DNA of 33,768 nucleotides, from contig NW_003143302.1 in the NCBI RefSeq assembly GCF_000003605.2, positions 205,051 through 238,818 on the forward strand, written 5' to 3'. The notes below the pieces were generated by a model that was not told the origin of the DNA, searched no databases, and saw nothing but the letters and a program-made list of their open reading frames with translations. Both the position numbers and the translations under genes were made by a program. The DNA comes from Saccoglossus kowalevskii (taxonomy: Eukaryota > Hemichordata > Enteropneusta > Harrimaniidae). Each line of letters begins with the position of its first letter. Position 1 is the first letter of the stretch. Positions 7,901 through 26,527 of this stretch are shown here, in pieces.

Positions 7901-10900
7901 TGACGACCGTTAGAAGAATATTAAATTCCAATTCTTATCATGCTACGTGTGATGTATGCATTTGCGTATTTCGGTATGCTTCAATTAAATATTACGATAC
8001 CCATAACTAGTTATTTTTCTTGATTAAATTGATTAAAAAGATGTCGTCTCTGAAGAATTTGTCAACAACTGATTTTATATAGCTACATTATAATGTCATC
8101 TTCTCGAAGGAAATGGATGATTTAAAAATGTCGTTTGATTACATATTGCATATCTGCATTCCAGGTTGTATTAATTCGTGTTTTTACAACAATTACAATA
8201 AAATTAACATTTTTACTATTTTTACTATTACACTTTGAAAGATGCAATATGGATGAATGAATACATTGGATTATGTTTTACCGTGAACTTAAAACATTGC
8301 TCTTGTTCGACGAAACCGTGTAATTCTCTAACTAGGCAAAGTGCGTTGATTGTTCTGTTATCACAAAATCAATTACTGCGCATGCGTATTAATGTTTTTA
8401 TCAAACGAATATGAATACGCAATGTAAACGCATTTTTTACTTTATGGTAAATAATATTCAAATTACTATCAATATGCAGTAGCAAACAACAAAATTGAAA
8501 ACAAATATCGTACCCTTCAACAATTGAAACATACTGATCAATACATGAAGAAAACGCGCATATCGAAATGTATTTAAGTGTTGGCCCTAAATCTGAATAT
8601 TAATGAAACTCGGTTCTGTTTATATTATCTGTTTCCGTAACGTTTAATTTATTTATATACATTGTTTCATTAGAGCATGACATTAAGCTAAATCGTTTTT
8701 AACTAAGAATGCTTAATTAATTACTCCTAAAAAAAAGAGGCGCCTGCCATTTGTGTACTACAATAGTTCATTAAAGAAATTCTACAAAATAAACTCGCTA
8801 TGTCTATAATTCTAACGTTGCATATCGTACAGCTCTCTTTGTTTGGAACCTAATTTCGCATTTTTAAATCTGACTAATTTTGTTCTGTGTTTTATCAACC
8901 TACCATTTCCCGGACCCACAGCCAATACACGTACACATTCCTCTTTCGGTGACAACGTCTGTAGCACGGCCGGTAGTTCTTCATCCAGCCAATACGCCAT
9001 AGTCTCGCAGTGGTTCGAGATCTCGTAATACTTCTTGATGGCGTAGTACGAATAGACGCTGATTCGACCCACTGAGTCTCGGGAACCATTGATAGAGGTA
9101 GCGTTTTCTTGGAGAGATAAAAAACGTGGTAATAACCATATCTACGTTAATTACTTAGTATGTCAAAATGCGATATTTATATAAATGTGCAGGTGACGTA
9201 CCTGCCGATATATAGTACTGATTTTGTAGCGGCGCGAGCAAATTAGATGGAAGTGTGTGCAGGTGATGACGTTTTATTTCACCAAACCTGAGAAAAATGA
9301 TGTATTCGCTCTGACATTATAATTTTTGTTTTTTTAATTTACTACATCATGTTCACGTATTTACCACTTCACACATTACTATTTCAAAATGACACTACCA
9401 GCCTACCATTAGCCATCTTCATGTGAACTTGACCACGATGCAAACAATTAAATGAAATATTCACTTTGCTATGTACATCTCATTCTAAAAATAGCGACAG
9501 TGTAAACCACTTGATTGGTCATCCATCCCTTTTTTTTCAAAGCACAATTAGCAGCGACGAATTTACTCATACATAACGTTCCGAAATTGTGAATTTAGCG
9601 TATGCACAACGTTTACAAATACATCTAGAGTTAGTCAGGACGATGGACTGTATACTTACTTCCATCCATGCCGAGCAGCGGAACCTCTTTTCTCAGCACT
9701 TTGTGGTAAATGGCCAAGTCAGTGGTGCTGGCTACAAACGGAACAGGTTTGAGCTGCACGAATCGTGAAGTGTTGTATGACATCAGACAAATTGTCGCTA
9801 GGGAACACAACAGTAGATAACGTTCCAGTGTTGAAATATGCAAATTAATATAAATGGATGAGTATACTTATAACATATGATATGTATGTGACGTTGTAGT
9901 GAGCATGCGCACTGATCGCGCAACGATTAATTAATATATATATTGTTCCTGAATGTCAGCAAATTATTCGGTTCAGTACAATCGATGTCGACATTCATTG
10001 GGGGTAATATAACCTTTTATAAATGAACTGTGACCTACAGTCTGATATATAAACTATACTCCACTGGCCTGTCGTAAAATGCCTACCAGTGCATAACCAA
10101 ACGAATAATTAATATAACAACGTTGTCCATAAGTAGTCAGATTATCAGGAACACGTGCATGTATATTTAATAACGGCAGCGAACAACGCGGCCATTTTAT
10201 TTTCGGGGAGGAACGGCCGGCAGTCACTGCGCATGCGCACTCGACGTAGACAAGTGCGACAACCTATATTGCAGGATTACGGGAATACTTCTTTTCACTT
10301 GAATTTATTTTTGCTGAATTAATAAATGTGAAAATAAAATCCAGCGAAAGTATCTTTTTTTTCATAAATTTTACATTCAACTTATTCAAAATAAACTTCA
10401 TACAAAAGACAGCCAAAATGTCTGTTTCAGCCAAAATACTGCTAGGTGAAATAAAATATTTAATAGTATTCCTGATATTACTCATACACAAGAGTACGTA
10501 AAGCAATTAAATATTCATTTGAAAGCGATGCTAAATTTCAGAAATTTTTCCTTTTACGCATTAATTAAAATCCTCGAGACCGTGTTCTGCTTTCCTCTGT
10601 ATTGCGGATGCGTCAGTAAATCATCGCTAATGTTCATACAGGCGCCTTTATCTGTGCGGCATTGTATAATGCAGCTCTGAGGTGAGAGATCGTTACATCT
10701 GTCATCCCATATTTAATCGTTATTAGCGTAAATTATATACTACGGAAAATGTCTGTCTTTTTAATATACAATAGGTTTTACACGCTTTGTGTGTATTGTC
10801 GATGAGAATGGTTTCATTTATCGCGTGTGTCATACTATAAAACTCGTGAAAATCCACAATATAATTTATCTTATTCCCCGCAGTAGTATTTCCGACAAGT

Positions 10901-11567
10901 CAACATTTGTATCAATGCGTCTTTCCGACAGGTTGCGCGCCCTCTAGGGACAAAGCATCTCCGTGGCAACCATTGTTTACGTCCATTAACGTATTCTGAC
11001 GTCTCGGAAGCGCGTCGTCGTTAGATGTCGCTAGTTATCGGAAACACGTTTTGCATTTTCATTGTAGGGTCGATATCTCTCTTCTCTTCGAAGCTATAAG
11101 CGAAGGAAGTTTAGAAGCTGTAAAGCGGTTGCTACTATCAAATAGAATTGACTTGTGTACTAGAGGTATGTTAACCTGTACATTTATTTGTCTGTTCCGC
11201 GCAATGGTAGCACTCACTATAGCACAGTCCATCTAGAGGGACTGTGATTATGGTAATACAACATTTCTTCTCGGCATAGCGCTTGTGGTGATTATGTTAT
11301 TATATATGTGTCATGATGTTGTTCATAACACGCGTGATTACCTACTTTCCTGTTGCCAGGGCCACATGGCGAGAGTGTTCTTCACCATGCACTATTAGTC
11401 GACAGAGATGACATCGCTTTATTTCTCGCCGACTGTGACAGGAGACTGGTCAATATGGAAATGACATCTTCACTGTATCTGGGTAAATGTGTAATATTAC
11501 TAGTAGTCGATTTTATTCACTTTGCTCCAATTGGGGTCTAATTGTAAATTTAATCCACTATATTATG

Positions 11568-11603
<36 letters not shown>

Positions 11604-14600
11604 GCACGCTTAGAGCCGAGAACCAACTCTCGTGCCTGGTGGCTACAGAAGATTAGGTCGCGTATATACCTCGTATATTATTACCTTCGGTTGGTCACTC
11701 GATTTGAGCTAATAAACGGCAAAACTGAAAATCGACAAATATTATCTGAATAATGATAACATAACTGCACCTGCTCTGACAATGCCACGCGATTTGAGCT
11801 TTAGATCGACGAAAACAAACATAGCTCTCGACAGGGGGCGCCCCCTCACTCGGCCTTGTCGGACGAACAATGCTCTAAAATGTAACTGTTGTTGAACGGC
11901 CGTTTCTTGTAGGGGAATCCCCTGTACACATTGCCATTATGAACAATAATGAAACTATGGTGGAGGAGTTGATCAATCGAGGCGCAGATGTCCAGAAACC
12001 GAGAGCTTGTGGGACATTCTTTTTACCCGGAAAGGATTGCAAATGTTACTACGGTAGAGTAATTCCCAACGGATATTTATCGTTGTTCATATCCATGCGA
12101 CTGTTGTATCTTACAAATATATTCATGGGGATAATTTAATTACCTCGGTATACTGTTAATATATTGCATATATATATTTAAAGCCGTGTCGCTTTCGTGT
12201 CTTGGTTAGAAGAGTGTGGTATGTATTATAGCGACCGCCAAACATTATTTCAGCATACTACTGCCAGACCACAACAACACATCATACATATTGACTTTTA
12301 TCCCATTTAGGCGAATACCCGTTATCGTTTGCAGTCTGCCAAGGCCTCAAGAAAACAGTGGAGCTTCTGGTACAGCGTGGGGCCTCACTGAGGGCGAGGG
12401 ATCGTTTCGGTAACACGCCCGTCCACATGTTGACGACTATCGCAAACACAAAAAGAGCGAAAGAAATGTACGACTTCATAATGAATATGGACGCCGAAGG
12501 GAGAATGTCTCTAAGTCATTTGCGAAATGGTATGGGAATGACTCCTATGTCATTAGCTGTGAAAAAAAGAAACATCGAGGTGAGGAAACCGGTTGCCATG
12601 AGTGACCAACACCCAAGTAATACTCGGATCCATTATCCTATTAGAACATTATTTGAGTATGTCGACAGATAAAATACTAAAACATACTGTAATAATGTAC
12701 TCTGGACTCTGGACGTTCACAAAATAGCACTGCAGTTTAAGTATGCCAGTGCGTTACTATATAATACAAGTTCCTTATTTACTGAAAATGTTATTAGATA
12801 GTATATACCCTGAATAGCTATCAGTCACGTCTTCATATTAAAAGATATGTTTATGTATAACACGTGAATTTGTCACGTAATTCGTTTATTCTTTTTCCCG
12901 AATAGATTTTTGAGCATATGATGAGCAGAAAAAGAACATTCCTATGGAATTATGGGACGACAACTTGCTATGCCTATGATTTAGAAGAGGTCGACACGTT
13001 GCAAAATAACTCTATCATCAAGGACATTGCATCGAACCTTCGTAACGATTTTAGGCTTGTGAGCTACTTATTTTGAATATCAATATCAAAAATCAATTAA
13101 CGTAAATTAACCATAGATTCTTAATTGATTCTAGAATGTTAGATACATTTATGGGCACGGACTGTGGAGAAGATAGCTTGGATTATCGGGGACACAAATA
13201 TATATTTTAAAATTTAAATAATTTTTTGCGATACTGCCCATTACGATTGTACAGTACCGGGACGTGTGCGTTACAGATATGTGTCGACTAAATGTTAGGT
13301 GTATATAGATGAAATTAAAGTTTTAGATAATACTATATTTCAGTTGATTCACATGAATAGTTTATTTGTACATTTAAATATATCTTTAAGAAATTTTTTG
13401 TAACTGTTCTAATTACAGTTCAGCGCTTTTGTGAATGTGAGCCCATTAAAAGAGCTGTTGGAATGGAAGCGCTCCAGGTATATTCAAAAGTGGTGGCTAT
13501 TTTCCACTGTAATGTACTTGATTTATGTGGTTATCCTCACCGCCGTGTTGTATAACCAGCCAATGACGCCCGTGTACCACGTCAATGCCAGCTCGTCGTC
13601 CCAAGCACTCAAGATGGAATCAGTATCAGTACAAGTAAGTTAAAATTTCGTTTTGATGAGTAGTGCGCAAGATGGTGATATGAAGCGGGATATTCACATG
13701 CTGCTTTTCTTTATTTTAGGATGCCTATGAAACCACCAGCGACTATGTGCGCATGAGTGGGGAAATTTTTGTTATTCTTGCGACGCTTGTCATGACGACG
13801 TTTGAGGTAGGTGCGAACTTAGCTACATAGGTAAACATTGCTACTCGTACGTTATCAACAAGTACGTTTAACCTGATTTGCTGTCTTGAGCAATCGTACC
13901 TAGTAAGAATGTATTGGGATTTAGTTTTTTTTTTCCAAACTTTTTCCCCCACAAGTCCACACTTTTTTCTTGTCTTTATGGAGATTGTGAACCGTTACGG
14001 TTTTATTCATAGTTAGTGTGTGATCGCTACAGATAACCGTATTTAATTTGTAAACAAACATTGCATTCTGTATATACCTTGAAAACTATCATTGTAAATC
14101 GAACCTTACACATTGGTTAAAACCATGTAGCTTTAATAAAGGTGCAACATCTGGAGTCTTCAATGTCAGGGCTTGAGTCCAATATAAGTACAACAGGTAG
14201 ACACTTTAACTAATGTTTCTTTGCGGACTATTATTTAATGAGCTTAAATATATCTTCGACCTCTTGCAATTACAAGCCACTGACCAAGACATTGTGTCGA
14301 TTACCTATATATACAAGAAAATTCTTCTCGGGTGCGTATCTAAAAATGGCTACGACTTGTATTCTATGAAAGCGACACAATTGATCTAGTTATAAATCTT
14401 TGCTTTCCTTGTACATAGTCAGGGATTTCAAAAACACATGAAATTGGCTGCACCCCACAGACAACAAAGATCTGTGATGTTTTTTGCTAAAAAGAAAACC
14501 AAATATAATAATGACGTCACTTTAAATTATGGACAATTATGGATGATTCTCAGTAAATCAGAATCATCAACAAAGTGGGCAAATTAAAGCTCTTATGTAA

Positions 14601-17600
14601 TGCTGTTTAATATCAAAAAGTTGTGCATGTTTTTTTGATAACTGCGCTACAATTATTTTCATTTGAGTCTAGTATAAATACTGCAAACACTAATTTGAGT
14701 TGTGTATTTGCCAAATTCATTTCTTAAAGATTAAATCAAATAAGAATAACATGAATAAATGAATGTCTTATTTCAACAGATCATCGACATATGCAAGCTT
14801 CGTGTTAAAGTATACCTGGGTCAGTCAGCCATTGCATTTCATTTGCTTGCGTAAGTTTCACAACTTGAATTGTTTTTGGATTTGTTATAATTTATTCTGA
14901 ATTTACTGTTGACCTAATAGAATCGCATTTTTGGAAACTTATTTGAACATTTACCGTTTACTTATTTCAAGAGTGACACCCATGTCAACCAAATGAAACG
15001 CATAGTGTTTAATTTGCCAGTTTATTTGGCATTCTTCAAAGTTTTAATTATTATAGAATAAACTTAGTAACCTGCATGAATGTACTGTCACATGAGACAT
15101 CGACGTTGGATTCGATCACATTTTAATAGAATAAAATCGATGTTCTTGATTGGAAACGTGCATAAAGATATGTATTTTGTGTGTACAAAGTATAGGTTAC
15201 TTTTAAATAAGGATTGCTACTGAATAATTAGACTGGCAAAGTCGGGACTTCTTTTTTGTTTTACAAAAAGAAATAATTGTTGTTTTAGTCCTTTTAGCGT
15301 GATCGCGAAAACTAACCTGACCGCTAAAGAAATCCTGACTGGACGCATCTGCGGGCATTTGACTGATATTAATTATTCATGATGTCATTGATTATTCATG
15401 AGTGAGTATTTGAAAGTAAACGTGACCCTTTTAAGGTTGACTCGATTCGATCGCAGAGATGAATACTTTAACTTTTTTTAAGTGAAACTGCGATACTTTC
15501 ATCCATGTTTACTGAAAACATGTCGATTTAAATGTCCAATGTATATAAGTAGTTATTCAAAAGTGAAAGGTCCTGTACATAGATAAGAGATGACGTATAC
15601 AGCTGCACTTTGATTCGTTGTCGATGCTCGTCAACATATTTTAAGGTAGAGATGCAGTTTACGTGACAGGTATTTTAATTAGTTAATTAGGAAACCAAGA
15701 TGACCTCTCTTGTCCACAATACTATATATTTTCGGAAAGCTTATTGTATGAATTTTAAAATTTTGTTAGTATTTTTTTTATGGACACTGTAGTTTGAAAT
15801 ATGCACAAAAATGTGCTTTTTGGTCAAAAGTGATTAAAAAAAAAAGCTTCTAAACCATGCTTCTGTTTCCCGTCAAAATTGGTTTATGGGTACATCTGTT
15901 TACTATGGAGAAAGTGCCGTCTTGAAAACTGTCTACCAGTTGTCAATGTTGCAGGGCAGCATCTCAAATTTCACTACTTCAAGTTTATGCATAAATTAAC
16001 ACCCAGGCTAGTTGGATGTACGATTGTTGTAACACTATTCAACCAAAAACAATGCCCGACGGCGTTTTGACGATAAACACATTGTCAATCATTTGTGAAA
16101 ATTTCAAAACAAAAGGTCAAAGCGTCTAGGAGCTTTTTTTTTAAAGTTCTGGGATGTGCACTAAAAAGAAGCTGAGATAATTGCTAATTTGCATAACAAT
16201 TCACTCAGTAAGAAGTTTGCTCTTGCTCATAATTAAAATGGCTGTAACAGTACAAAATTTAAATGTATTATCGTTTTGTTAAAAGTTAAATATAGTGCAT
16301 AATATGGAGATCCCGTCATTCCTTTTTTCACCATGTTTTTTTTTTATTATTTATGTACAGCCTTACTAAATCTTGCTAAGTATTCAAAAGAGATAATGTT
16401 TGCACCTGTTATCTATATTTTAAAAACGTTTTTGAGTATGTTCCACTATTCACAATTCTACAAAATTTTAACAGTCTATAGCCAAGACTGTTTGAATAAT
16501 AAAAAGCAAAAGAAAAAATCACTCCCAAGTGCTCATGAACCTGCATCTCTACCTTAATTAGCATAATTACCGGAGTGATTCCGCTCCGGTTTTCACTCCA
16601 ACGCAGGGAGTCACTTGAAAATGCGCCCAGTCGGGATTTCTTTCGCAGTGACGCTAGTTTTCGAGGTCACGTTAAAAAGACTAAATTGACAATTAATTAT
16701 ATTTTTTTGTAAAACAAAAAAAAAAAGAATTCCGGACTTTGCCAGTCTACTGAATAATCTTTACACTATTGATTTTGAAGTTTCTTTACATTGTGTGTAG
16801 TTGGTGTGTGATCAATAGCGTTCTTCTTCAACCGTTCTTCCGAGTATCTAGATTATCGCAAGAAGTTATTTCAGCGTGCGCACTCCTGTTTGGATGGTTC
16901 TACTGCATGTTTTTTGCCAGAGGATATAAATGTACAGGTCCATTCATATTCATGATCCAATCTGTGAGTTAATTTAAATTATGTTAAATATTTCGCACAC
17001 TGGCCGTGTGAGATTTACTAGTTTCAACACAATAAGTTTGCAAACTTTGAAAACAATATCTGAATATCAACTCCTTTGGATACGATTGGTTGTCACAGTA
17101 AAGTATTGTGTACGATAACTGAAACCACTTCTTCAGATATTCCTATTGATGCCTCGTATAATATGATTCGTACTCGTAGATTCTGGTTAAAGATATAACC
17201 AAGTTTTTTATGGTTTATTTTATCTGTCTTACTGGATTTTCACTCGGTAAGTCAATGTATCTAAACTATTTATCATTGTTAATACACGAGGCTAGTATAA
17301 TAAAACCGGAGATAATATCAATACCCAATCTCCCAAGCAGATGTCTATATCTACGGAAATATCTCTGCTACCATGCTATTTTATGCTCGTCGTTGATTGG
17401 TCGATACGTCACAGTCGAAGACGCCCACCAAAAACTTGCCATGCATGTCTTCGATTTTCGAACCCGACGGAAGCGTATGCGTTTTTTTGTATATTCTGGC
17501 AGCTTTATAATTTATATTGCTCGGTGATCGACAGGGCGGTCCGCTTGATGAACCGAGTAACACCTTAGTAACCGTTATTCCTCGATGAAATTAACTATTT

Positions 17601-19867
17601 CACGGTTAATCGGTGAGTTTACGAAACAAAATAATCATCCGCTATCGATAACATATTTTAAAACTTGTTTACTGGCATGAAGAAGTCAATACGAGAGCCT
17701 CCTCTAACAATTAAACGACAAAAAATACGCGTAGAAACAGTTATGTGGCGTTTCACCAAAAATGGCGGTGTGTGGTGACAGAAATACTTTTTGTATTCCG
17801 GCCGCAAGGATGTCTGGGATGGAGAACAATCAATACCCACACGATATTCAAATTCAAAGTTGTAAAAGATAAATAACACTGCAAACGTCTGAAAAACGTA
17901 TCACAAGTACAAACTCAAGGAACTAAACAATTCGCTACAAATCAAATCAAAAAAAGATTTGGAATATTCTGCTCCATGTCATAAGTGATACCTGATCACT
18001 CAATTATGCGGGTTGTCCATAATTAGCACGTCATAAAGAAATAATAAAAAAAAAAACTTTATGCTTTTGAGATATCAAATATCATGCATTGATTTGATTT
18101 AAAAATAGCACTAGAAATTTAACTACTTGCGCAGTATGCATATAACAGGTTCCGACCCACTCGAGAAAACTGTCAAAACAAACATGGAAAACTGCGCATT
18201 ATCCAAATTAATTTAAATAGATGTGTATCAGCAACAACTGGTCAAGATTGCATTTCAATCGAGACTCTCTACGATATGAGGTAGAGGCGTTGTTTTGATG
18301 AAATGTAACTCGGCACATACATAAATAAATAAAGTTCAATTACATTAATTTCAACTTTACTTAATTACACTATTATAAACTATATAATTTATTTACATAA
18401 CATTTCTTGTCTTGCTTTTTTTATTCCCAGCAATTCACATGATGTATTATCCCATTCCTGATTACTGTATGCCACGTGAAATGGCGTCACTGGGAAGTAC
18501 GGCAGTCTTCTTAAATAGTGCAATGTTAGGACTGGTACAGTTGGATATATTTGACGACCCTACAGTACGTATTGTTAAAATAACCCAGCTTTCACAATAC
18601 CAGTATGCCAATACACAGATTTTGTAATACAAATAAACTCCCCATATGGAATAATATGAGAACTTGAAAAGCATGACTATAAAGCAATGGATTACATTCA
18701 CGTATTAACGAGTAATTTGTTTAGTTTCAATATATAAATCAAAGACTACGAACATATGTTGAAAGACTCCTAAACGAAACCGATTCAACTACACTGATAC
18801 TGGCACTATTTGAAAAGTTAATCCAGCGAACTTGTTCATTTAAATATGTTAGTCTGCAGTTTGTGTTTGTTAACGTGACAATCACACCCCATTGCTTGAT
18901 TACTTTGGTATCATTAAATAAATTTTAAAAAGTTTGAAAAGCCATTTCTTACAAAACAGAAAAAAACACAGAAACGATTGCAGTATTTTTGAAAACATGA
19001 GTAGTTGAAGTGAAATTATTATTTGGCTAGAAATGTCCAAATAGCGTACTCTATACTACTGAGTAAGTTGGTCGGGACAGTATTCCTGAACCATTTCTAG
19101 TGGCACCTCATGAAGTATATGATTGCAATAATCTTTTTTTTAACTGAAGTTGATTATTATTGTATATTTTGCAGACGTCCTCTTTCACAAAGGCTTTAAT
19201 TTATGCATATTTAATAATCGCCTATGTGCTGATGCTTAATATGCTGATTGTCATGATGGGAAGTTCATATTCGGCCATTTTTAATGACTGGAATCATCTT
19301 TGGAGTATGCAGGTATGTATTTATCAAGTAGCCTTGCTGTATTAGGCATGCGTATTCCACGTAATCATCGTCAAATGGTAACTGGATCAAACTGAATCTT
19401 AAACGTTCACGAATGTAAACGTGATTATACATATACACCATGTGTCGTTTCTTACTAGAAAGTACTAACTACACTCGTGGTTGAGCGAAGAGGACCTAAA
19501 TGTTTTTTCCCAAAGGCTGGGATTAATGGAGTAGTTATTGGACTGAATCCAAAGAAGCAATATATACGGTAAGGGTGTTGAAACATGCGTGGTGCTGTAC
19601 CAGTGTATCTAAGTGTTCAGGTATAATGCATATCGACACGTGTTTCCCACCTTAGTTTATCTTAAAAAAAAGACGTGTTCTTCATTTAAAGCACTTTCGT
19701 GAAAATTATCAATCATATAATAGTGAAATTTATAATAGTTGAGTTTGAGGAGGATGAAAGATTGCATTATTGGTTTGTTTTGTTATAGAGTTGAAGTTAC
19801 TGACGAAGAACATTCGAAGATTCATCGCAGTATTCCACATCATTTTATAACAGGAAGACTAATGTAA
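1728..19867 (+). CDS. TRPV-type cation channel, complete 15-exon gene
   Basis: Plasma-membrane tetrameric cation channel subunit of the TRPV family. Exons: 1728-1957, 11068-11165, 11360-11482, 11913-12053, 12311-12579, 12906-13058, 13419-13634, 13720-13806, 14780-14850, 16801-16963, 17180-17246, 18431-18564, 19175-19312, 19459-19568, 19789-19867. All introns are GT-AG, every phase matches, and the exons sum to 2079 nt (692 aa). Residues about 78-300 are ankyrin repeats, with the long-finger motif ACGTFFLPGKDCKCYYGEYP typical of TRPV. S1 is about 363-383, S2 424-443, S3 453-473, S4 485-503 and S5 523-541. The pore loop is about 560-584 with D578-I-F-D-D-P583 where the selectivity filter falls. 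S6 is about 592-612 (LMLNMLIVMMG), followed by TRP-box Trp627. An NAS glycosylation site lies in the S1-S2 loop at 394. The start is the first ATG after an upstream in-frame stop and has A at -3. The cytosolic tail is short. The TRPV subgroup cannot be assigned without a tree; invertebrate TRPVs are known in sensory cells. Confidence 0.95.
1958..4730. other. TRPV intron 1, 5' part, downstream of the nested gene
   Basis: No exon could be supported. The region holds one small inverted-repeat element (4351-4614) and GCATGCGC-type motifs near 3286 and 3899. The rest is AT-rich non-coding DNA. Confidence 0.6.
4351..4614. mobile_element. Small inverted-repeat element (MITE-like)
   Basis: The ends are inverted copies: TCCGTTCACTGC at 4351-4362 and GCAGTGAACGGA at 4603-4614. 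Similarity continues inward for about 40 bases (both arms then read ..GATC.CGCGT.ATG..). There is no coding capacity and no convincing target-site duplication. A non-autonomous DNA transposon relic is the likeliest reading. Confidence 0.6.
4731..5104 (-). CDS. HNMT-like exon 5: C-terminal domain and stop
   Basis: Acceptor ctattctctcag. It encodes DSNARARLLEKFSSGRFSRR, RINIPVTANITEVFDED, LLDYLSSAIKFRERAP and GFDLIVIRK. These match the C-terminal half of HNMT (..DISDCF.., ..LLWDFLTE.., ..FIVIE). TAA ends at 4731. Confidence 0.9.
4731..9783 (-). CDS. HNMT-like SAM methyltransferase, nested in TRPV intron 1
   Basis: SAM-dependent methyltransferase of the histamine N-methyltransferase family; human HNMT moves a methyl group to the imidazole ring of histamine in the cytosol. 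Exons in transcript order: 9783-9660, 9107-8904, 7377-7169, 6130-5974, 5104-4731 (1068 nt, 355 aa plus stop). Phases match throughout. The SAM glycine-rich loop is LAVGPGNEVID (about 103-113), with an acidic FVEP at the end of the next strand. HLIQSIYYVRD (196-206) matches the HNMT block HMIQMLYYVKD, then come LKPGGLLLMSV and the C-terminal strand FDLIVIRK. The protein is longer than human HNMT (292 aa) because of about 60 N-terminal residues. The start at 9783 is the only in-frame ATG in exon 1, but an upstream coding exon joined at the acceptor 9799-9798 is possible. Going by remembered human numbering, Gln143 and Tyr146/147 are kept (Q199, Y202, Y203) while Glu28 and Asn283 are replaced, so histamine may not be the substrate. 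One intron uses a GC donor. Confidence 0.85.
5105..5973. other. HNMT-like intron 4
   Basis: An 869-base GC-AG intron. An 88-codon open frame on the - strand at 5787-5521 has no recognisable domain and is not needed to keep the HNMT frame, so it is treated as chance. Confidence 0.6.
5974..6130 (-). CDS. HNMT-like exon 4: catalytic-face helix, GC donor
   Basis: Acceptor ctctttacag. FHVVHLIQSIYYVRDLENTI and ALKPGGLLLMSVNS align closely with HNMT. The exon ends CAG|GCGAGT. Using the nearby GT instead would create a stop codon at the junction, so the GC donor at 5973-5972 is preferred. Confidence 0.85.
6748..6880. mobile_element. TTAA-flanked inverted-repeat element
   Basis: A compact CpG-rich palindrome in AT-rich surroundings, inside HNMT-like intron 3. 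The arms run inward about 40 bases from TTAA at 6748-6751 and TTAA at 6877-6880 (left AAGGGCGGCAGTCGTCGTGC, right the inverted AAGCGCGGTGGTCGTCGCGC). TTAA at both ends is the target site of piggyBac-type transposons, so a 133-base non-autonomous relic is likely. Confidence 0.5.
7169..7377 (-). CDS. HNMT-like exon 3: Rossmann core
   Basis: Acceptor gatttttag. It encodes EVIDTTILRCVREWVATL, CQFVEPMEDVSQLYERYKAL and EWSTLTPDEYK. The FVEP acidic position is where the SAM ribose is held. The donor gtcaaa is weak but gives the required phase 0. Confidence 0.85.
8904..9107 (-). CDS. HNMT-like exon 2: N-domain and SAM loop start
   Basis: Acceptor tctctccaag, donor gtaggt. It encodes YSYYAIKKYYEISNHCETMA, then ..DEELP.. 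(matching DKKLP in HNMT), then LAVGPGN, the first part of the SAM-binding loop. Confidence 0.88.
9660..9783 (-). CDS. HNMT-like exon 1 (start uncertain)
   Basis: The donor gtaagtat gives phase 1 and joins correctly to 9107. It encodes MSYNTSRFVQLKPVPFVAS to MDG, which has no counterpart in human HNMT. The frame stays open upstream to 9867 with a hydrophobic stretch (YLLLCSLATICLMSY) but no ATG. A plausible acceptor (gttccctag) ends at 9798, so the true exon may begin at 9797. Confidence 0.6.
10188..10239. promoter_or_regulatory. Possible promoter motifs (YY1-like and NRF1-like)
   Basis: GCGGCCATTTT at 10188-10198 fits a YY1-type site and TGCGCATGCGCA at 10228-10239 is a perfect NRF1-type palindrome. 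They stand about 400 bases upstream of HNMT-like exon 1 and inside TRPV intron 1. Animal promoters often carry these motifs, so this is a candidate promoter for the nested gene. There is no transcript evidence. Confidence 0.35.
10934..10950. promoter_or_regulatory. CTCF-like motif
   Basis: TTGCGCGCCCTCTAGGG resembles the reverse complement of the CTCF core, which in bilaterians reads like GCGCCCTCTAGTGG. It lies 118 bases before TRPV exon 2. One motif match only. Confidence 0.25.
11068..11165 (+). CDS. TRPV-like exon 2: first ankyrin repeat
   Basis: Acceptor cattgtag, donor gtatgt. The peptide VDISLLFEAISEGSLEAVKR reads as the opening ankyrin repeat, with its helix-turn-helix pattern. Confidence 0.9.
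11360..11482 (+). CDS. TRPV-like exon 3: ankyrin repeat 2
   Basis: Acceptor ttgccag, donor gtaaat, phase 1 at both ends. GPHGESVLHHALLVDRDDIA is a clear ankyrin repeat (a G-x-S-x-LHHA version of GxTPLHxA). Confidence 0.92.
11569..11602. repeat. (TA)17 microsatellite
   Basis: An uninterrupted TA dinucleotide run in the channel's intron 3. Confidence 0.97.
11832..11847. promoter_or_regulatory. GC palindrome, CTCF-core-like
   Basis: CAGGGGGCGCCCCCTC contains the perfect palindrome AGGGGGCGCCCCCT. Each strand shows CAGGGGGCG or AGGGGGCGC, the heart of the CTCF consensus. Its location in intron 3 of a sensory channel gene makes a regulatory site possible. Confidence 0.3.
11913..12053 (+). CDS. 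TRPV-like exon 4: ankyrin repeat 3 and finger loop
   Basis: Acceptor tttcttgtag, donor gtagag. It encodes GESPVHIAIMNNNETMVEEL and then the ADVQKPRACGTFF stretch. The Ala-Cys-Gly-x-Phe-Phe loop between repeats 3 and 4 is a strong TRPV signature. Confidence 0.95.
12311..12579 (+). CDS. TRPV-like exon 5: ankyrin repeats 4-6
   Basis: Acceptor cccatttag, donor gtgagg. The exon opens with GEYPLSFAVCQGLKKTVELL, followed by FGNTPVHML and then MGMTPMSLAVKKRNIE, covering the last ankyrin repeats. It ends in phase 0. Confidence 0.95.
12906..13058 (+). CDS. TRPV-like exon 6: linker domain
   Basis: Acceptor cccgaatag, donor gtgagc, 51 whole codons. IFEHMMSRKRTFLWNYG and YAYDLEEVD match the post-ankyrin linker of TRPV channels (W-x-YG followed by Y-DL--ID/VD). 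Confidence 0.93.
13419..13634 (+). CDS. TRPV-like exon 7: pre-S1, S1 and S1-S2 loop
   Basis: Acceptor aattacag, donor gtaagt, 72 whole codons. PLKELLEWKRSRYIQKWWLF leads into a hydrophobic S1 (STVMYLIYVVILTAVLY). The extracellular loop carries an N-A-S glycosylation site. Confidence 0.94.
13720..13806 (+). CDS. TRPV-like exon 8: S2
   Basis: Acceptor ttattttag, donor gtaggt, 29 whole codons. SGEIFVILATLVMTTFE is most of the S2 helix. Confidence 0.92.
13807..14779. other. TRPV intron 8
   Basis: 973 bases of AT-rich intron. No exon, repeat or RNA gene was recognised. Confidence 0.6.
14780..14850 (+). CDS. TRPV-like exon 9: S2-S3 linker, start of S3
   Basis: Acceptor tttcaacag, donor gtaagt. 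It encodes IIDICKLRVKVYLGQSAIAF and continues into S3. It ends in phase 2, and the gc left over joins t at 16801 to make Ala463. Confidence 0.9.
15220..15228. repeat. Target-site duplication, left copy
   Basis: CTGAATAAT directly before the transposon's TAGACTGG end. The identical 9 bases follow the other end at 16750-16758. Confidence 0.8.
15229..16749. mobile_element. 1.5-kb TIR DNA transposon, probably Mutator-like (MULE)
   Basis: The element begins TAGACTGGCAAAGTC and ends with its inverse, GACTTTGCCAGTCTA allowing one mismatch. The inverted repeats are about 125-130 bases long (15229 to about 15352, and about 16620 to 16749) and, by eye, about three-quarters identical. Both arms contain TTTTGTTTTACAAAAA, then ..CGAAAACTA.., then AAAGAAATCC.GACTGG.CGCAT. 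A perfect 9-base duplication (CTGAATAAT) flanks it. Long TIRs plus a 9-base target duplication are typical of Mutator-like elements. The interior is AT-rich with no transposase reading frame, so the copy is non-autonomous. It lies in channel intron 9 without disturbing the exon 10 acceptor. Confidence 0.85.
16750..16758. repeat. Target-site duplication, right copy
   Basis: CTGAATAAT immediately after the transposon's CCAGTCTA end. Confidence 0.8.
16801..16963 (+). CDS. TRPV-like exon 10: S3 and S4
   Basis: Acceptor ttgtgtgtag, donor gtgagt. It completes S3 (WCVINSVLLQPFF) and carries S4 (ISACALLFGWFYCMFFARGY), which lacks a row of basic residues, as usual for TRPV. A transposon ends 51 bases upstream of this exon. 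Confidence 0.93.
17180..17246 (+). CDS. TRPV-like exon 11: S4-S5 linker and S5
   Basis: Acceptor actcgtag, donor gtaagt. ILVKDITKFFMVYFICLTGF matches the conserved TRPV S4-S5 linker and S5 (I-L-x-D-x-x-x-F-x-x-VY). Confidence 0.93.
17247..18430. other. TRPV intron 11
   Basis: 1184 bases. Short open frames occur near 17210-17568 on both strands, but they overlap one another and show no domain. No repeat boundary was recognised. Confidence 0.55.
18431..18564 (+). CDS. TRPV-like exon 12: turret, pore helix and filter
   Basis: Acceptor tttattcccag, donor gtacgt. It encodes the turret, the pore helix (STAVFLNSAMLGLVQL) and the filter region DIFDDPT. The usual G-M-G-D filter is absent. Confidence 0.92.
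18565..19174. other. TRPV intron 12
   Basis: 610 bases of AT-rich intron. Nothing recognised. Confidence 0.6.
19175..19312 (+). CDS. TRPV-like exon 13: S6 and TRP box
   Basis: Acceptor atattttgcag, donor gtatgt, 46 whole codons. AYLIIAYVLMLNMLIVMMG is S6 with the gate region, and W627 in HLWSMQ matches the TRP-box Trp. Confidence 0.95.
19459..19568 (+). CDS. TRPV-like exon 14: proximal C-terminus
   Basis: Acceptor cttactag, donor gtaagg. KVLTTLVVERRGPKCFFPKA follows the TRP helix, like the beta-strand-rich proximal tail of TRPVs. Confidence 0.88.
19789..19867 (+). CDS. TRPV-like exon 15: C-terminal end
   Basis: Acceptor tttgttatag. It encodes RVEVTDEEHSKIHRSIPHHF and ends ITGRLM followed by TAA. 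With this exon the coding sequence closes at exactly 693 codons including the stop. Confidence 0.88.
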
Positions 19868-20380: not shown

Positions 20381-20828
20381 AGGTAATTTACTAACAAGCA
20401 ACATATAAACGTTTCTATAAAGGACGAAATGAATGACACAACACACAAAACTAGATGTATTGACTAATACTTGAAGCGAGCATTTTTTTTAAAACGGTAA
20501 TATCTACTTTGTTTTGCCATCAGAGTTGTGTCAATAATCTGTGATGTCACCGTTTTTAGAAATGGTACAAATCGAGATAATTTTTATGTTTAACATCAAA
20601 TAATGATTTTGAATATTCACTCTGTATGCCAATATACTTGTTATCAAGAAGTTAATATTATTCATCAACAAGTCGTGCTCTTTGCTGGTTGATTTATTTC
20701 TTTATTATCCTAAAGCTCAAGCAATCGGGACATCGCATTCGAACGTGCAATGTCACGGTATCCAATAACATCTCAGTCTATATACTTCTTTTGCTTTTAG
20801 TTTTGTGTATTAGAATAGGATAGTGAAA

Positions 20829-20890
20829 ATTGACTTGTACAGATACACAATTAATACTTAACTAGATATACGACATGTGCTATACATTGT
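20829..20890 (-). pseudogene. Decayed copy of the EgtD-like exon 4 / intron 4 junction
   Basis: About 60 bases nearly match 24558-24618, which is the 3' end of EgtD-like exon 4 and the start of its intron: ATTGACTTGTACAGATACAC, then CTAGAT.TACGACATGT. The donor reads TT where the functional copy has GT (tag|ttaagt against tag|gtaagt). It is a fragment without function, lying downstream of the gene's stop codon. Confidence 0.65.
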
Positions 20891-21295: not shown

Positions 21296-21483
21296 CTACA
21301 TTCGTTTTAACAACGCTAGTCCATAACTATTGGCGTCGTCACTCCAAGTCTTTTCCAAGTACAGTCCATTTCTCTTCATGGTATCTTCAAATTGATTCCA
21401 TGACCATTTAAGACTCCCGTTTACCAATTCGTGCCTATATAGAAGTTCACCTTCTTTAAAATGTATAGTTAAACCTAGCGTGT
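21296..21483 (-). CDS. EgtD-like exon 5: C-terminal end
   Basis: Acceptor atattttacag. It encodes TLGLTIHFKEGELLYRHELV, WNQFEDTMKRNGLYLEKTWS and YGLALLKRM, ending TAG at 21296. It matches the family's ..F..GE.I.TE.S.K... and ..F..LA..AG......W.D....F...L pattern. It is separated from exon 4 by a 3.1-kb intron that holds a LINE relic. Confidence 0.92.
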
Positions 21484-24400
21484 CTGTAAAATATGAATAT
21501 ATATAAAATGATATTCTGTCAATAGAGAAAAATCATCACAATGTGTACCATACACTACTAAACCTTGTATATTGTAAGGTTCCGAAAAAAAAACAATATT
21601 AATATACACAATAATAGTAATTCTAGTGAAGACCACAGATATAGTTCATACGAACTAGTCTAGTATGTGGCCCCGTGATATTGATGTGATTAATTAAATG
21701 CTTGAAGATTGAATTAATTATATACAGATTCTGAAACATAACAAGTATATTGATTCATGAGATACAGTTTTAACGTATTTTTTCAATAAATATCTGCTTT
21801 CAATATTTGTTATGGAATCAGGAAGTGAGGTCCAGTTTTTTGCTACCGCATATATGATACTGTGTTGATTAGTAGTAAGATTAATTATAGGAATATAATA
21901 ATTGGAACTAGTAGCATGACGTGTTGCATAGTTGTGTGGAAGAGTTTCGAAGTAATGGTCAACATTATGGGCAAACTAGTTTTTATTAGGATCAAAAAAC
22001 AAACTCGGGTAGTTACTAAGTTTATAGAAGTCTACAATATTTGTTTTTTTAATAGGAGGGCCGTTGGGCACGAACATTTGAAAACTTTATTCTAGCTAAC
22101 ATTTTTTTTCTGGAGTAGTATAATTTAGTCAAGAACGGATTTGTAGGTGTTACCCTAGATTTCAGTAAATAATATGTGTTAAAATGAGAGTTGTAAAGCA
22201 AGATAAGAATAGAAAGTGGGACAAAATGACGGATTTTAGACAAATTGCGTTCTTAACAATTAAATTTATTGTCACTCACAGGTACTTTTAAATAAGACGC
22301 CCTCTATAGTTTTATTTTGCATCTTAACGTTGCCACAAGTAATTGCTCTTAGATGTTTTAATTAACATATTAGTTTTGTTTGTGTTGATGATTGATTTAT
22401 GTGCATTGCACCAGTTGCACACCTTCTGGAATTCGAAGTTAATGTTGTTGAGATCAATAACGTTATTTCTAAGAACTTTGAAAAGATTGGTGTCGTCCGC
22501 AAAAATCGAAAACTCTGGTTAGCAATATCATTTATATACAAGAGAATTAAAATCGGGCCGAGAATCGATCCCTATGAAACGCCGCAAGAGATATTTCGGG
22601 GTGGGGGTGGGGGTGGCGGTGGCGAAGTGCTTGTGTCAATTACACCATACTGCTTGCGACCGGAACGGTAGTTTGTTAACCATTGTAGTACTGTACCCCC
22701 CAAGTCCATAATTTTCGAGTTTACTGGCTAATATGCCATGGTCAATGGTATCAGCCAGGGCCAGTTTAATATTGTGTTTTTTCGATAATCATACTGAAGT
22801 TGTTGGAGTATTTCATATTTTTCCCAAGTAATTAATCATTTCTTAGCCAACAATTATCTAAAAACTTTACTAATGGCAGAAAGAATCGAAATAGTCCTGT
22901 AATTTCCCACATATGTACTGGGTCCTCTTTTTTAAATACGGCAGTAATCCTGGCTATTGAGCAGTTAATGATGTGAGCAAGGGGAGCTGAGATAATGAAA
23001 GATGAATGAATGGCAAGTTTTGAGTGGATTTGGTCGTAACCAACAAACTTTTTTGGGTCTGATTGATTGATCTTGGTGAAGACGTCATAATCAGAAACAT
23101 AACTGAAGAAGTATGAATTAGGCTAGAGTCTATTGAAATATATGATTAATGTTGTTAGTTACTAGCAGCTAGATTCGGCCCAATATTTGTAAAGAATTAG
23201 ACTAATTCCTCGGCGATATCAGTTTCATTAGTTAGAATGGTGTCATTAGAAGTGACGAGCTTTTGTGCAATGTTATTAGTGGTTTTATTGAGAATTTAAA
23301 TGGTCACCTGACATTTGTTCTTATTAACAGAGTTTAATTTATTAGTGTAGTAACGTTGTTTGGGCATTTTTAGCAGTTTATATTGATGATTCTTGTATTG
23401 CCTATAATAAGTGCGTATCTGGATATTATAAATTATTCACACAAATTAAAAAATAATATTTACTTTTGCTCGATTTTAGAAAACCCTTCGATAGTCATGG
23501 CTTATTGGCATGTTTCTTGTTAATGTTAGCCGTTTTGTTCTTCAGATGCTCCGAGCAAACAGTGGGGAAAATGTTATAGAATTTGATTTGATATCTTGTT
23601 TATCTCGTATGCAGTTTAGCTAAATCCCAATTTGTGGAAACATATTCAGTAATCATGCATAATTGCTCTTTTCCGAGTTCCAACAAACATTCTATTCTGC
23701 CACGTGAGAGTGCAGCAAAAACTTCATTTCATTCATATATGTGAACAGTATTGCAACGTCATCTCTTGAAACCTTATCCATTTTGACACATTTTGCACAA
23801 AACTGTAAATATTTACTATAAAACAGTAATGCATAATTATGAGAAAATACGAAAACCAGAATTTACAAGCACTGTGAACCCAGAATATGTTTTGCGACTT
23901 TCATTTTGTAAGCTGTGAGAAATAATCTCAAACTGACAAATGATTTTGGTATGAACATCAAGAGTGAAGTTTTACAGGCCTGCCAAACGTCTGTAAAGTA
24001 TGTTTCTCCATATCACATGCGCATACTGATAAACTGGAAATATAGTGACCCCCATTGCGCGCGCTCACTTTCGGTAGAAATGGAATAAACTTTCGTCTAC
24101 ACAAATAATTTAGAAATCATTCACCGATTCCCGTTCATGTCCATAATTGATCTTTACACGATAAACAAGATGTTTAATATAGTTATGATTTCGAGGATGC
24201 TTCGGCCACATTAATATTGATGTTAGTCAATTCATAGTCTTTTACGCGATCCAGTAGAAATGGGGACCTAACATTGGTGAAATAAACTTAAGTTATACGG
24301 ACGAAAAATGGAGTACAGAATATTAGAAATTTCATGTATGCGATTTCATAGCAAAAATCATTTTACTGAAACTTTTACTGACAATACTATTCGACAGTTT

Positions 24401-26527
24401 TACATTTTGCTATTGTCCAAACTGACACAAAATATCTGTTTGCATGGACCATTGAGAACATTGAACAACTTTATTACATCAAAGTTCCATGATATATTAC
24501 ATAAAGCAATATTGTACATATGCAATGTCACCTCGTCACCTTGGTACTAACAAAAATTGACTTGTACAGATACACAAATAACACATATACTTACCTAGAT
24601 GTACGACATGTTCGCACGTGCTTTTTAGGGCCTTTTGTATATATTGTGCGTGTTTAACGGTGCCACACATGTCATCACGAATAACGTAATTGCAATGTAA
24701 CTGGAAATTTTCCTTTTTGAAGTTTGCGTTGAACTCTCTATTCAATCGATTCAGTAGGTTTTCATTAAATGATATTCCCATTTTTGGATCAGAATGCATG
24801 GCAAGAATTTTATCTTTATCTTGCGTGAGATCAATACCAATCAGAAATCTATCTTTTTCTCCTGTAAAATCAGAACATTAGTTCAGGTCAGTTCACCCGT
24901 TTTCTTGCTACCTGTCATCTGAAAACATTCCAATTATTTGGGGCGGCTGAACAAATTTCTTTCTTTTCTTACATTCCAACAGGTTGTGGTGCACTGGGGA
25001 TTAGTGGTACACACAATACTACTGCACATATAAATATTACGAAAACAAATAACACAATATATTGAGTTTTAGAGGAATAAAATCTGCAGATATGTTTCAC
25101 AACAACTTAACCTTAACGAATAAAGAAGGACTTTACACCTACCCATTGTTTCTAAAACCCTTGATAAAAAATTCTCCATTTTATTCAAGGGTATATTGCT
25201 TAAACTATTTCCCAGAAATATGAGCAGTTTCCCTTTTCGTATACTTCTTAAATAAGTCAAACCATCATTATAATCCCCAACAAATGGCTCAACCAAAACG
25301 GAATCAAATTGTTCCTGTAACACGGTAGCATTTTGCAACATAAAATCTGTAAGACACGAAAGCAGCACCATGAGAAAAACGTGTCGAACTATTGAATGTT
25401 ATGGCAGCGGTGGAAGAAAATACCAAAACACACAGATAATTCAACAACACATGTATTATAATAGCAATGTATATATGAAACCAGACATGATTAGTACAAC
25501 TTCTGAGGATCTGGATGGAAATTCATCAATATGTATATGATTGTTGTCAAATGTTGCCCTCTTATTTCATTTTACTTCACTTAAGTGGTTTTATTGTTTT
25601 CCAACTGTTGAACCATAATTTTGGATGGATAAATGGAAGAATTTAAGAAATTCATTCAATTACAAAACTGTATACACACCTCCAGCTATATCAATCGGTA
25701 TATACGTCAAGTCTTTGTTTTTATTCAATAATGCTGATATTATGTGTGTAGTCTTTGTTAAACTGCCAGCACCCAACTCACATAACACAATGTCATCTCC
25801 TAAATCAGAGATAATCAAATCTACAAAAATATGGTAATTACATATGTATTTGTTATTTTGGTTTCAACCCTGAATTGAATATGACATTAGAATACCATGT
25901 TGGTCCAAACGAGAGGCCCAATAATCTTTTGATTATATGGGTTTTCTAGTGAATTTGTTATGACACGTCATACAATCAAGTATTGTTGTAGATATATGTT
26001 ATGTGTTGGAAGTGGGGAGGTGTCGGAATCACACAAATGATCAATACTACAGAGTAACTACAAAATGATATAATTAAGTAATTAAATATTCAATTTGAAA
26101 CAATTGGGCCAAAAAGTTATAAATAACTCCAGTAGGACACATTCCCTCGACATTTCTGGGTCTAGGTTACTTATATTTGTAAATACGCACACCCACCTGA
26201 ATATTGTCCCCAGCATGGTCTTAAAATATACTTTCGAAAGAACGTTGGTACAATGATAAAACTTGGCGAAGCAGCTGTGCTAAATAACTACAGTAGGACA
26301 CCCCCCTCCAGATTCGCACATTTATGAGTCTAGGTTACATAAATATGTAAATTCTCACACCCACCTGAATATTGTTCAAGCATAGTCTTTTCAGTTCGAT
26401 AAATATGATATAAAGGATTTTCCATAGCATTTTTTTCGAACAGTTTTGAACCTTGAGTGTCGTATAAATACCAGTGTGGTACATACTTTGGTGTGGATAA
26501 CAATCCTTCTTTTATTTTCTTCTCCAT
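21296..26527 (-). CDS. Stand-alone EgtD-type histidine methyltransferase family protein
   Basis: SAM-dependent methyltransferase of the EgtD/DUF2260 family. In bacteria and fungi this family trimethylates the alpha-amino group of histidine to hercynine, the first step to ergothioneine; related domains form part of OvoA (ovothiol). Exons in transcript order: 26527-26365, 25820-25680, 25346-25143, 24861-24595, 21483-21296 (963 nt, 320 aa plus stop; mycobacterial EgtD is about the same length). All phases match. Visible blocks are PKYVPHWYLYDTQGSKLFE (13-31), NPLYHIYRTEKTML (37-50), the SAM loop CELGAGSLTKT (68-78), YIPIDIAGDF (94-103), VEPFVGDY (120-127), FLGNSLSNIP (145-154), FLIGIDL, FNENLLNRLNREFNANF and the C-terminal GELLYRHELVNGSLKW (270-285). 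No EgtB or OvoA sulfoxide-synthase domain is present in the frame or nearby. The Glu of the histidine pocket has a likely equivalent (E277), but the motif around it is altered. Histidine as substrate is therefore an inference. Confidence 0.92.
21690..23700 (-). mobile_element. Decayed LINE retrotransposon (CR1/Jockey-like), RT and C-terminal part
   Basis: Read on the - strand, the pieces line up in the right order for a non-LTR retrotransposon ORF2 but in shifting frames with stops: INKKHANKP.LSKGFLKS, QYKNHQYKLLKMPKQRYYTN, PKKFVGYDQIHSKLAIHSSF, SIARITAVFKKEDP, NYRTISILSAISK, QLQYDYRKN, ADTIDHGILASKLENYGLG, RSILGPILILLYINDI, FADDTNLF (22505 downward) and C-terminal KNWTSLPDSITNIESRYLLK. FADD is the catalytic reverse-transcriptase motif. 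The endonuclease domain was not found, so the copy is probably truncated at its 5' end. It lies in the same orientation as its host intron (EgtD-like intron 4). The end coordinates are approximate. Confidence 0.85.
22597..22623 (+). repeat. G-rich tract inside the LINE relic
   Basis: A run of GGGGGT-type units followed by GGCGGTGGCG, with at least four G-runs, so it could fold as a G-quadruplex. It lies just upstream (on the - strand) of the RT motif around SILGP. Confidence 0.8.
24595..24861 (-). CDS. EgtD-like exon 4
   Basis: Acceptor ctgattttacag, donor gtaagt. RFLIGIDLTQDKDKILAMHS, then GISFNENLLNRLNREFNANF, then HVVHL. These match GIDL..K and FN.N.L.RIN.E...DF of EgtD. Fragments of its 3' boundary recur at 20829-20890. 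Confidence 0.93.
25143..25346 (-). CDS. EgtD-like exon 3
   Basis: Acceptor cgtgtcttacag, donor gtaggt. It encodes LVEPFVGDYNDGLTYL, LLIFLGNSLSNIP and ENFLSRVLETM. N152 in SLSNIP aligns with the Asn of the family's STIGN motif. Confidence 0.93.
25680..25820 (-). CDS. EgtD-like exon 2: SAM-binding loop
   Basis: Acceptor tttttgtag, donor gtgtgt, phase 1 at both ends. It encodes DDIVLCELGAGSLTKTTHII and LTYIPIDIA. ELGxGxxxKT and P-I-D-I are the SAM-binding hallmarks of the family. Confidence 0.93.
26122..26221 (-). pseudogene. Decayed copy of the EgtD-like exon 1 / intron 1 junction
   Basis: Matches 26282-26390, the end of exon 1 and the start of intron 1. Shared words include AATAACT.CAGTAGGACAC, GTCTAGGTTAC and CACACCCACCTGAATATTGT, then CAGCATGGTCTT against AAGCATAGTCTT. 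A one-base gain (ctggggacaat for cttgaacaat) shifts the exon frame. It lies within intron 1 of the functional gene, about 160 bases from the original, and is not an alternative exon. Confidence 0.7.
26365..26527 (-). CDS. EgtD-like exon 1
   Basis: MEKKIKEGLLSTPKYVPHWY starts the family's N-terminal helix. The ATG at 26527 was chosen because EgtD proteins begin close to this motif. An in-frame ATG at 26605 would add 26 hydrophobic residues, but a good acceptor (tatgttttcag) lies between the two, so that part is probably a 5' UTR intron. Donor gtgggt, phase 1. Confidence 0.88.

Follow-up and report, generated by a model that had tools for sequence, protein, structure and literature searches.

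The presence of an apparently complete EgtD-type gene in an animal genome raises the question of whether the gene is genuine and truly belongs to the animal, and, if so, which substrate its product would methylate. The locus lies in a 33,768-nucleotide stretch of the hemichordate Saccoglossus kowalevskii (contig NW_003143302.1, positions 205,051 to 238,818; hereafter the window), the end of which is also the end of the contig. The first-pass annotation described a 320-residue EgtD-like protein in five well-spliced exons at 21296-26527, in an animal with EgtD alone that could either make hercynine or have repurposed the fold for another N-methylation. The reading preferred here, to which a probability of about 0.58 is given, is that the gene would belong to an animal-specific branch of amino-acid N-methyltransferases with the EgtD fold and at least six loci, and that histidine is likely not the preferred substrate of the window copy.

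The coordinates, the gene structure and the length of the protein were described correctly (Table 1). All four introns run from GT to AG, every exon break is in phase 1, and the coding length of 963 nt corresponds to 320 codons plus the stop. Exon 2 carries ELGAGS, which we take to be the AdoMet motif. The protein matches the Pfam family Methyltransf_33 (PF10017) at E 5.1e-66 over profile positions 1-303 of 304, scoring 223.3 bits against a gathering cut-off of 23, and a profile made from prokaryotic EgtDs only recovers all five exons in the six-frame translation. Furthermore, nine solved structures were matched, six of them EgtD sequences (E 6.4e-31 to 7.8e-27) and the remaining three weak and unrelated (E 0.09-0.13). 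Given that a PF10017 match of this strength across five in-frame, phase-consistent exons is not due to chance, it is confirmed that an animal genome carries, in the window, a real EgtD-type gene that is both full-length and stand-alone.

Table 1. Features of the window, of the paralogous loci and of the OvoA-type loci; positions without a contig handle refer to the window.
Feature	Location	Strand	Remarks
EgtD-like gene, exon 1	26365-26527	minus	start codon at 26527; bears the equivalents of M. smegmatis EgtD Y39, F47 and Y56
EgtD-like gene, exon 2	25680-25820	minus	motif ELGAGS
EgtD-like gene, exon 3	25143-25346	minus	motif FLGNSLSN with the G161 and N166 equivalents
EgtD-like gene, exon 4	24595-24861	minus	altered pocket loop (Y206 to H192, T213 to G198), 9-residue insertion, M252 to K246
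EgtD-like gene, intron 4	21484-24594	minus	possible degraded reverse-transcriptase fragment at ~22324-22518
EgtD-like gene, exon 5	21296-21483	minus	stop included; conserved Glu E277, 4-residue insertion, S282 (= S284 of EgtD), K284
Histamine-N-methyltransferase-like gene	8866-9000, 7166-7384, 5942-6133, 4734-5087	minus	
TRPV-like cation channel with ankyrin repeats	~11000-19345	plus	between the two methyltransferase genes
Paralog L094	C53		five exons, splice sites at the expected places; 54.2% identity to the window protein
Paralog L093	C344		exons 2-5; exon 1 not found
Paralog L096	C4613		exons 3-5; N upstream
Paralog L097	C1558:350000-358500		five exons; exon 3 end out of frame relative to L096
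Paralog L095	C2801		91.1% identity with the window protein across 112 residues; N from within exon 3
OvoA-type set 1	C4451:222098-228991	minus	nine matches, profile positions 14-443 of 444
OvoA-type set 2	C4451:329138-334177	plus	four matches, profile positions 219-443

Several smaller features accompany the gene. The fragment in intron 4 matches the Pfam model RVT_1 at E 0.018, under the cut-off of that model. A 58-nt repeat (26150-26207 against 26318-26375, 88% identity, 168 nt apart) covers the splice-donor region of exon 1 and may reflect an incomplete, degenerate duplicate of that exon. The sequence beside the exon 4 donor is found again downstream of the gene as a 35-nt repeat (20826-20860 against 24553-24587, 91% identity), where 20826-20860 is perhaps the leftover of a partial duplication.

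Membership of the fold family does not extend to the narrower EgtD class. Only two NCBIfam models were matched up to E 1, namely the EgtD equivalog TIGR03438 (210.2 bits, under its cut-off of 290.9) and the EasF model TIGR03439, which is matched over the full length, more weakly than EgtD (135.3 bits, under its cut-off of 205.55). EasF proteins come from fungi, where they methylate a tryptophan bearing a prenyl group, and represent an EgtD fold acting on another amino acid. The alternative that the window gene derives from OvoA, as its C-terminal methyltransferase domain split off, which the first-pass annotation had itself considered, could draw on the presence of OvoA in this genome (see below), but it is next to impossible: the OvoA C-terminal model TIGR04345 gave no match to the window protein in NCBIfam up to E 1, whereas the EgtD and EasF models match it over its whole length.

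The gene is not single. A PF10017 profile search of the 572-Mb S. kowalevskii genome returned 19 matches at six loci, a lower bound, located in the window and on contigs C344, C53, C2801, C4613 and C1558 (in the control of this search, two of 14 known genomes were positive, Escherichia coli and Methanosarcina acetivorans). The five other loci follow the exon plan of the window gene where they can be read. The frame break in L097 reflects either a pseudogene or an assembly error. Close pairs of paralogs are under selection against amino-acid change, with dN/dS values of 0.207 for the window gene and L095 (101 codons), 0.243 for L094 and L093, and 0.242 for L097 and L096; synonymous change between subfamilies is mostly near or past saturation.

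The descent of the family was examined against 84 prokaryotic EgtDs, comprising the best 80 of at least 582 confirmed loci and four of 48 plasmid records, all picked by likeness to the window protein, to which they have a mean identity of 30.8% and a best of 35.0%. The tree combined these sequences with five animal copies (L095 was too short and was left out) and the M. smegmatis EgtD; fungal and other eukaryotic sequences, like the remaining confirmed prokaryotic loci, lie outside it. Within this sampling the animal copies form one group with support of 100/100 on a branch of length 1.63, which meets the rest of the tree at an unresolved centre. The root serves for drawing only, and the program warned that the animal rows deviate in letter composition from the alignment. 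A phylogeny of EgtD-like proteins had been proposed as a check on the gene, and in this comparison with prokaryotes a donor among the sampled groups was rejected, because the animal copies nest in none of them. A pattern search of viral contigs with the single window protein gave zero matches, an alignment-based search of viral contigs gave 21 candidates of which none was confirmed as a close relative, and phage records gave no match at E 1e-5.

The other genes of the window also bear on its origin. In the PDB, the rough joined model of the histamine-N-methyltransferase-like gene matches two HNMT sequences (3.2e-10 and 5.3e-10); in Pfam, it matches generic methyltransferase models only, all under their cut-offs. 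Pieces of the TRPV-like gene at ~12295-13073 match TRPV6 structures at 2.8e-27, with designed ankyrin proteins ranking higher, and its ankyrin repeats exceed the Pfam cut-offs; its later exons, up to ~19345, were called by eye only. With the introns, these two neighbours and the 572-Mb genome, the animal origin is secure. Contamination by bacterial DNA, or recent acquisition of the gene from a bacterium, might be suspected because the EgtD family is common in bacteria, but it is scarcely credible in view of the four introns, the TRPV-type and histamine-methyltransferase-like neighbours, the five further loci that share the exon plan wherever it can be read, the mean identity of 30.8% to the prokaryotic proteins and the fully supported animal group on its branch of 1.63. 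On this evidence, contamination and recent transfer can be regarded as ruled out, while an old transfer into animals or into an earlier eukaryote may have taken place.

The substrate question turns on the pocket, for which residues of EgtD are given in M. smegmatis numbering. M252 is presumably a substrate-pocket position of EgtD, and we take M252 and E282 together to set the preference between histidine and tryptophan. Tryptophan is named in a review (PMC9103826), a partial echo of this role. The same review gives a role in EgtD to G161, and PMC8593015 gives roles to Y39, Y56, N166, Y206, T213, S284 and E282. At the positions around the amino end of the substrate and AdoMet, the window protein retains all six residues (Y39, F47, Y56, G161, N166 and S284). 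G161, N166 and S284 are also invariant in all 84 prokaryotic EgtDs; the invariance of Y39 and Y56 in that set is partly the result of selection, since 80 of the sequences were picked via patterns that overlap these two residues. Equivalents of Y56, N166 and S284 are kept in every animal copy that covers them (four, five and five copies, respectively), and the Y39 position of L097 is Phe.

The side-chain end of the pocket is different. A205, Y206 and T213 are present in all 84 prokaryotic EgtDs and M252 in 73 (another residue in 11), whereas the window protein has M191, H192, G198 and K246; these changes were scored against prokaryotic EgtDs, with fungal Egt1, EasF and other animals outside the comparison. 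In the order window, L094, L093, L097 and L096, the residues are M, M, M, N and T at position 205, G, W, W, F and L at position 213 (as aligned), and K, H, H, I and V at position 252. Position 206 is Tyr in four of the five animal copies and His in the window copy only, and this His could likewise bind a carboxylate. Ala205 of EgtD acts via its backbone according to PMC8593015, so the change of its side chain may matter little. Furthermore, the pocket loop of all five animal copies is one to two residues shorter than in any of the 84 prokaryotic EgtDs, and all five share two insertions found in none of the 84, one of nine residues before position 252 and one of four residues before S284; a profile-profile alignment puts both at the same places.

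The segment around E282 requires a more careful reading. Aligners place a variable residue (N280 of the window protein) at this position, and a Glu (E277) stands three residues earlier, beside the four-residue insertion. A replacement of E282 by Asn was considered and dropped, since the paralogs have this Glu in common: in all five copies it lies five residues before the Ser equivalent to S284, compared with a spacing of two residues in bacterial EgtD. E277 may thus stand in for E282, and recognition of the imidazole may survive in a different geometry. The rearrangement of the segment is a safe claim, and the loss of E282 is not, because all five copies share the Glu.

Compared with EgtD (TIGR03438; PDB 4pim, 4uy5, 7scf), the window protein is alike in its whole fold by sequence, its length, ELGAGS and the six kept residues, whereas it differs in the side-chain positions of the pocket, the two insertions and an equivalog score under the cut-off, and its gene differs in having introns, a family of paralogs and no EgtB found. 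Because its equivalog score falls short and its side-chain pocket departs from that of EgtD, the protein should not be filed as EgtD. From the observed gene structure, fold family and residue changes, we infer catalysis, product and substrate as follows. The product of the window gene would be a functional N-methyltransferase, SAM-dependent and with the EgtD (Methyltransf_33) fold, in which Tyr40, Asn152 and Ser282 would hold the carboxylate and the alpha-amino group of the substrate as in EgtD, with Tyr22, Phe30 and Gly147 predicted to line the substrate site. Methyl groups would pass from AdoMet to the alpha-nitrogen to give an N-methylated amino acid or a betaine. The 205-213 loop, position 252 and the E282 segment have an altered sequence or length and vary among the paralogs, so histidine is unlikely to be preferred by every copy. 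Between the two uses originally proposed, the altered pocket would favour repurposing for another N-methylation rather than hercynine production; the most likely role of the window protein would be to N-methylate another amino acid, either instead of histidine or in addition to it, and the family is a real, divergent and probably functional animal branch of EgtD-type N-methyltransferases.

It is distinctly unlikely that the protein methylates no free amino acid at all and acts instead on another amine or a macromolecule, or merely binds AdoMet as a non-catalytic protein. Such a role could be read from the remodelled pocket, the number of loci and the unrelated histamine-N-methyltransferase-like gene in the same window, but the retention of the Y56, N166 and S284 equivalents in every copy covering them argues against it. 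Moreover, no HNMT-like gene was found beside the paralogous loci, which is a weak result given that eight of 18 flank stretches are all N and others are partly N, and the three further matches to it in the genome are weak ones lying on other contigs.

The first-pass annotation had further suggested a genome search for EgtB or OvoA, and here the notion of EgtD alone does not hold. Two OvoA-type sets lie on C4451, about 100 kb apart and on opposite strands. Each match is a single-exon score under the whole-protein cut-off (in the control, three of 14 known genomes were positive, one above the cut-off), and all five exon pieces tested from set 1 have the OvoA model TIGR04344 (5-histidylcysteine sulfoxide synthase) as their best model. 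One piece contains the HxxxHxE iron motif, which is named in PMC4768315, where OvoA is also already known from animals. Judging from these matches, the S. kowalevskii genome has OvoA, a protein of thiohistidine chemistry that is distinct from the window protein.

For EgtB, the outcome was negative within the regions searched. As first described, the window lacks an EgtB-type domain: a profile of 67 EgtB-like neighbours of prokaryotic egtD found nothing in its six-frame translation up to E 0.1. EgtB-like reading frames occur near egtD, within the fetched flanks, at 69 of the 84 prokaryotic loci (two of these supplied the EgtB queries). No EgtB was recognised by the EgtB-model search of the genome, which returned two OvoA exons (one per set), a piece of C540 and, on C300 and C2607, three matches that are short and weak; the control of this search was positive in four of 14 known genomes, none above the cut-off. 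Long stretches of N in the fetched assembly regions mean that an EgtB could be hidden. The C540 piece was rejected, since GldK (82.8 bits) scores higher than EgtB (64.0 bits) and, among solved structures, formylglycine-generating enzymes match it best. This piece (7400-8050) is an uninterrupted FGE-sulfatase frame nearest to GldK lipoproteins on a 13.5-kb contig, and may be a bacterial contaminant.

A pathway without EgtB has a precedent in EanA of Chlorobium, an EgtD homolog that trimethylates histidine in a pathway from which the oxygen-dependent EgtB is absent and that differs in having the rhodanese-like EanB as its partner (PMC9103826). It is conceivable, though rather unlikely, that the window protein is a true histidine N-alpha-methyltransferase, with hercynine being either a betaine end product or a precursor supplied to OvoA. 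EgtD is the best family match, most of the residues for the alpha-amino and carboxylate groups are retained, there is a conserved Glu close to the E282 position, and an OvoA-type enzyme is present; in addition, PMC4493562 reports that OvoA can couple hercynine and cysteine to the sulfoxide of ergothioneine, and PMC8779493 reports a methylated hercynine from a marine sponge. Against this stand the changes at A205, Y206, T213 and M252, the score under the EgtD cut-off, the insertions near the pocket and the divergence of pocket positions among the paralogs. The coupling reported for OvoA is the reason for keeping, as a doubtful reading, a route in which the animal would make its own hercynine by an EgtD-like enzyme and convert it by OvoA to an ergothioneine-type thiohistidine without EgtB.

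Some invertebrate proteins carry the label 'histidine N-alpha-methyltransferase-like' in public databases, and the EgtD-like family in animals may thus already be annotated; no description of such a family was found in the open-access literature searched. Microbes are said to be the makers of ergothioneine, with animals only absorbing the dietary supply (PMC7653990), a general statement that the route from hercynine through OvoA would, if true, contradict. An animal with several EgtD-like loci together with OvoA would offer a direct test of whether some animals produce hercynine, ergothioneine or other amino-acid betaines of their own, and its paralogs may provide a naturally occurring set of EgtD pockets with changed residues.
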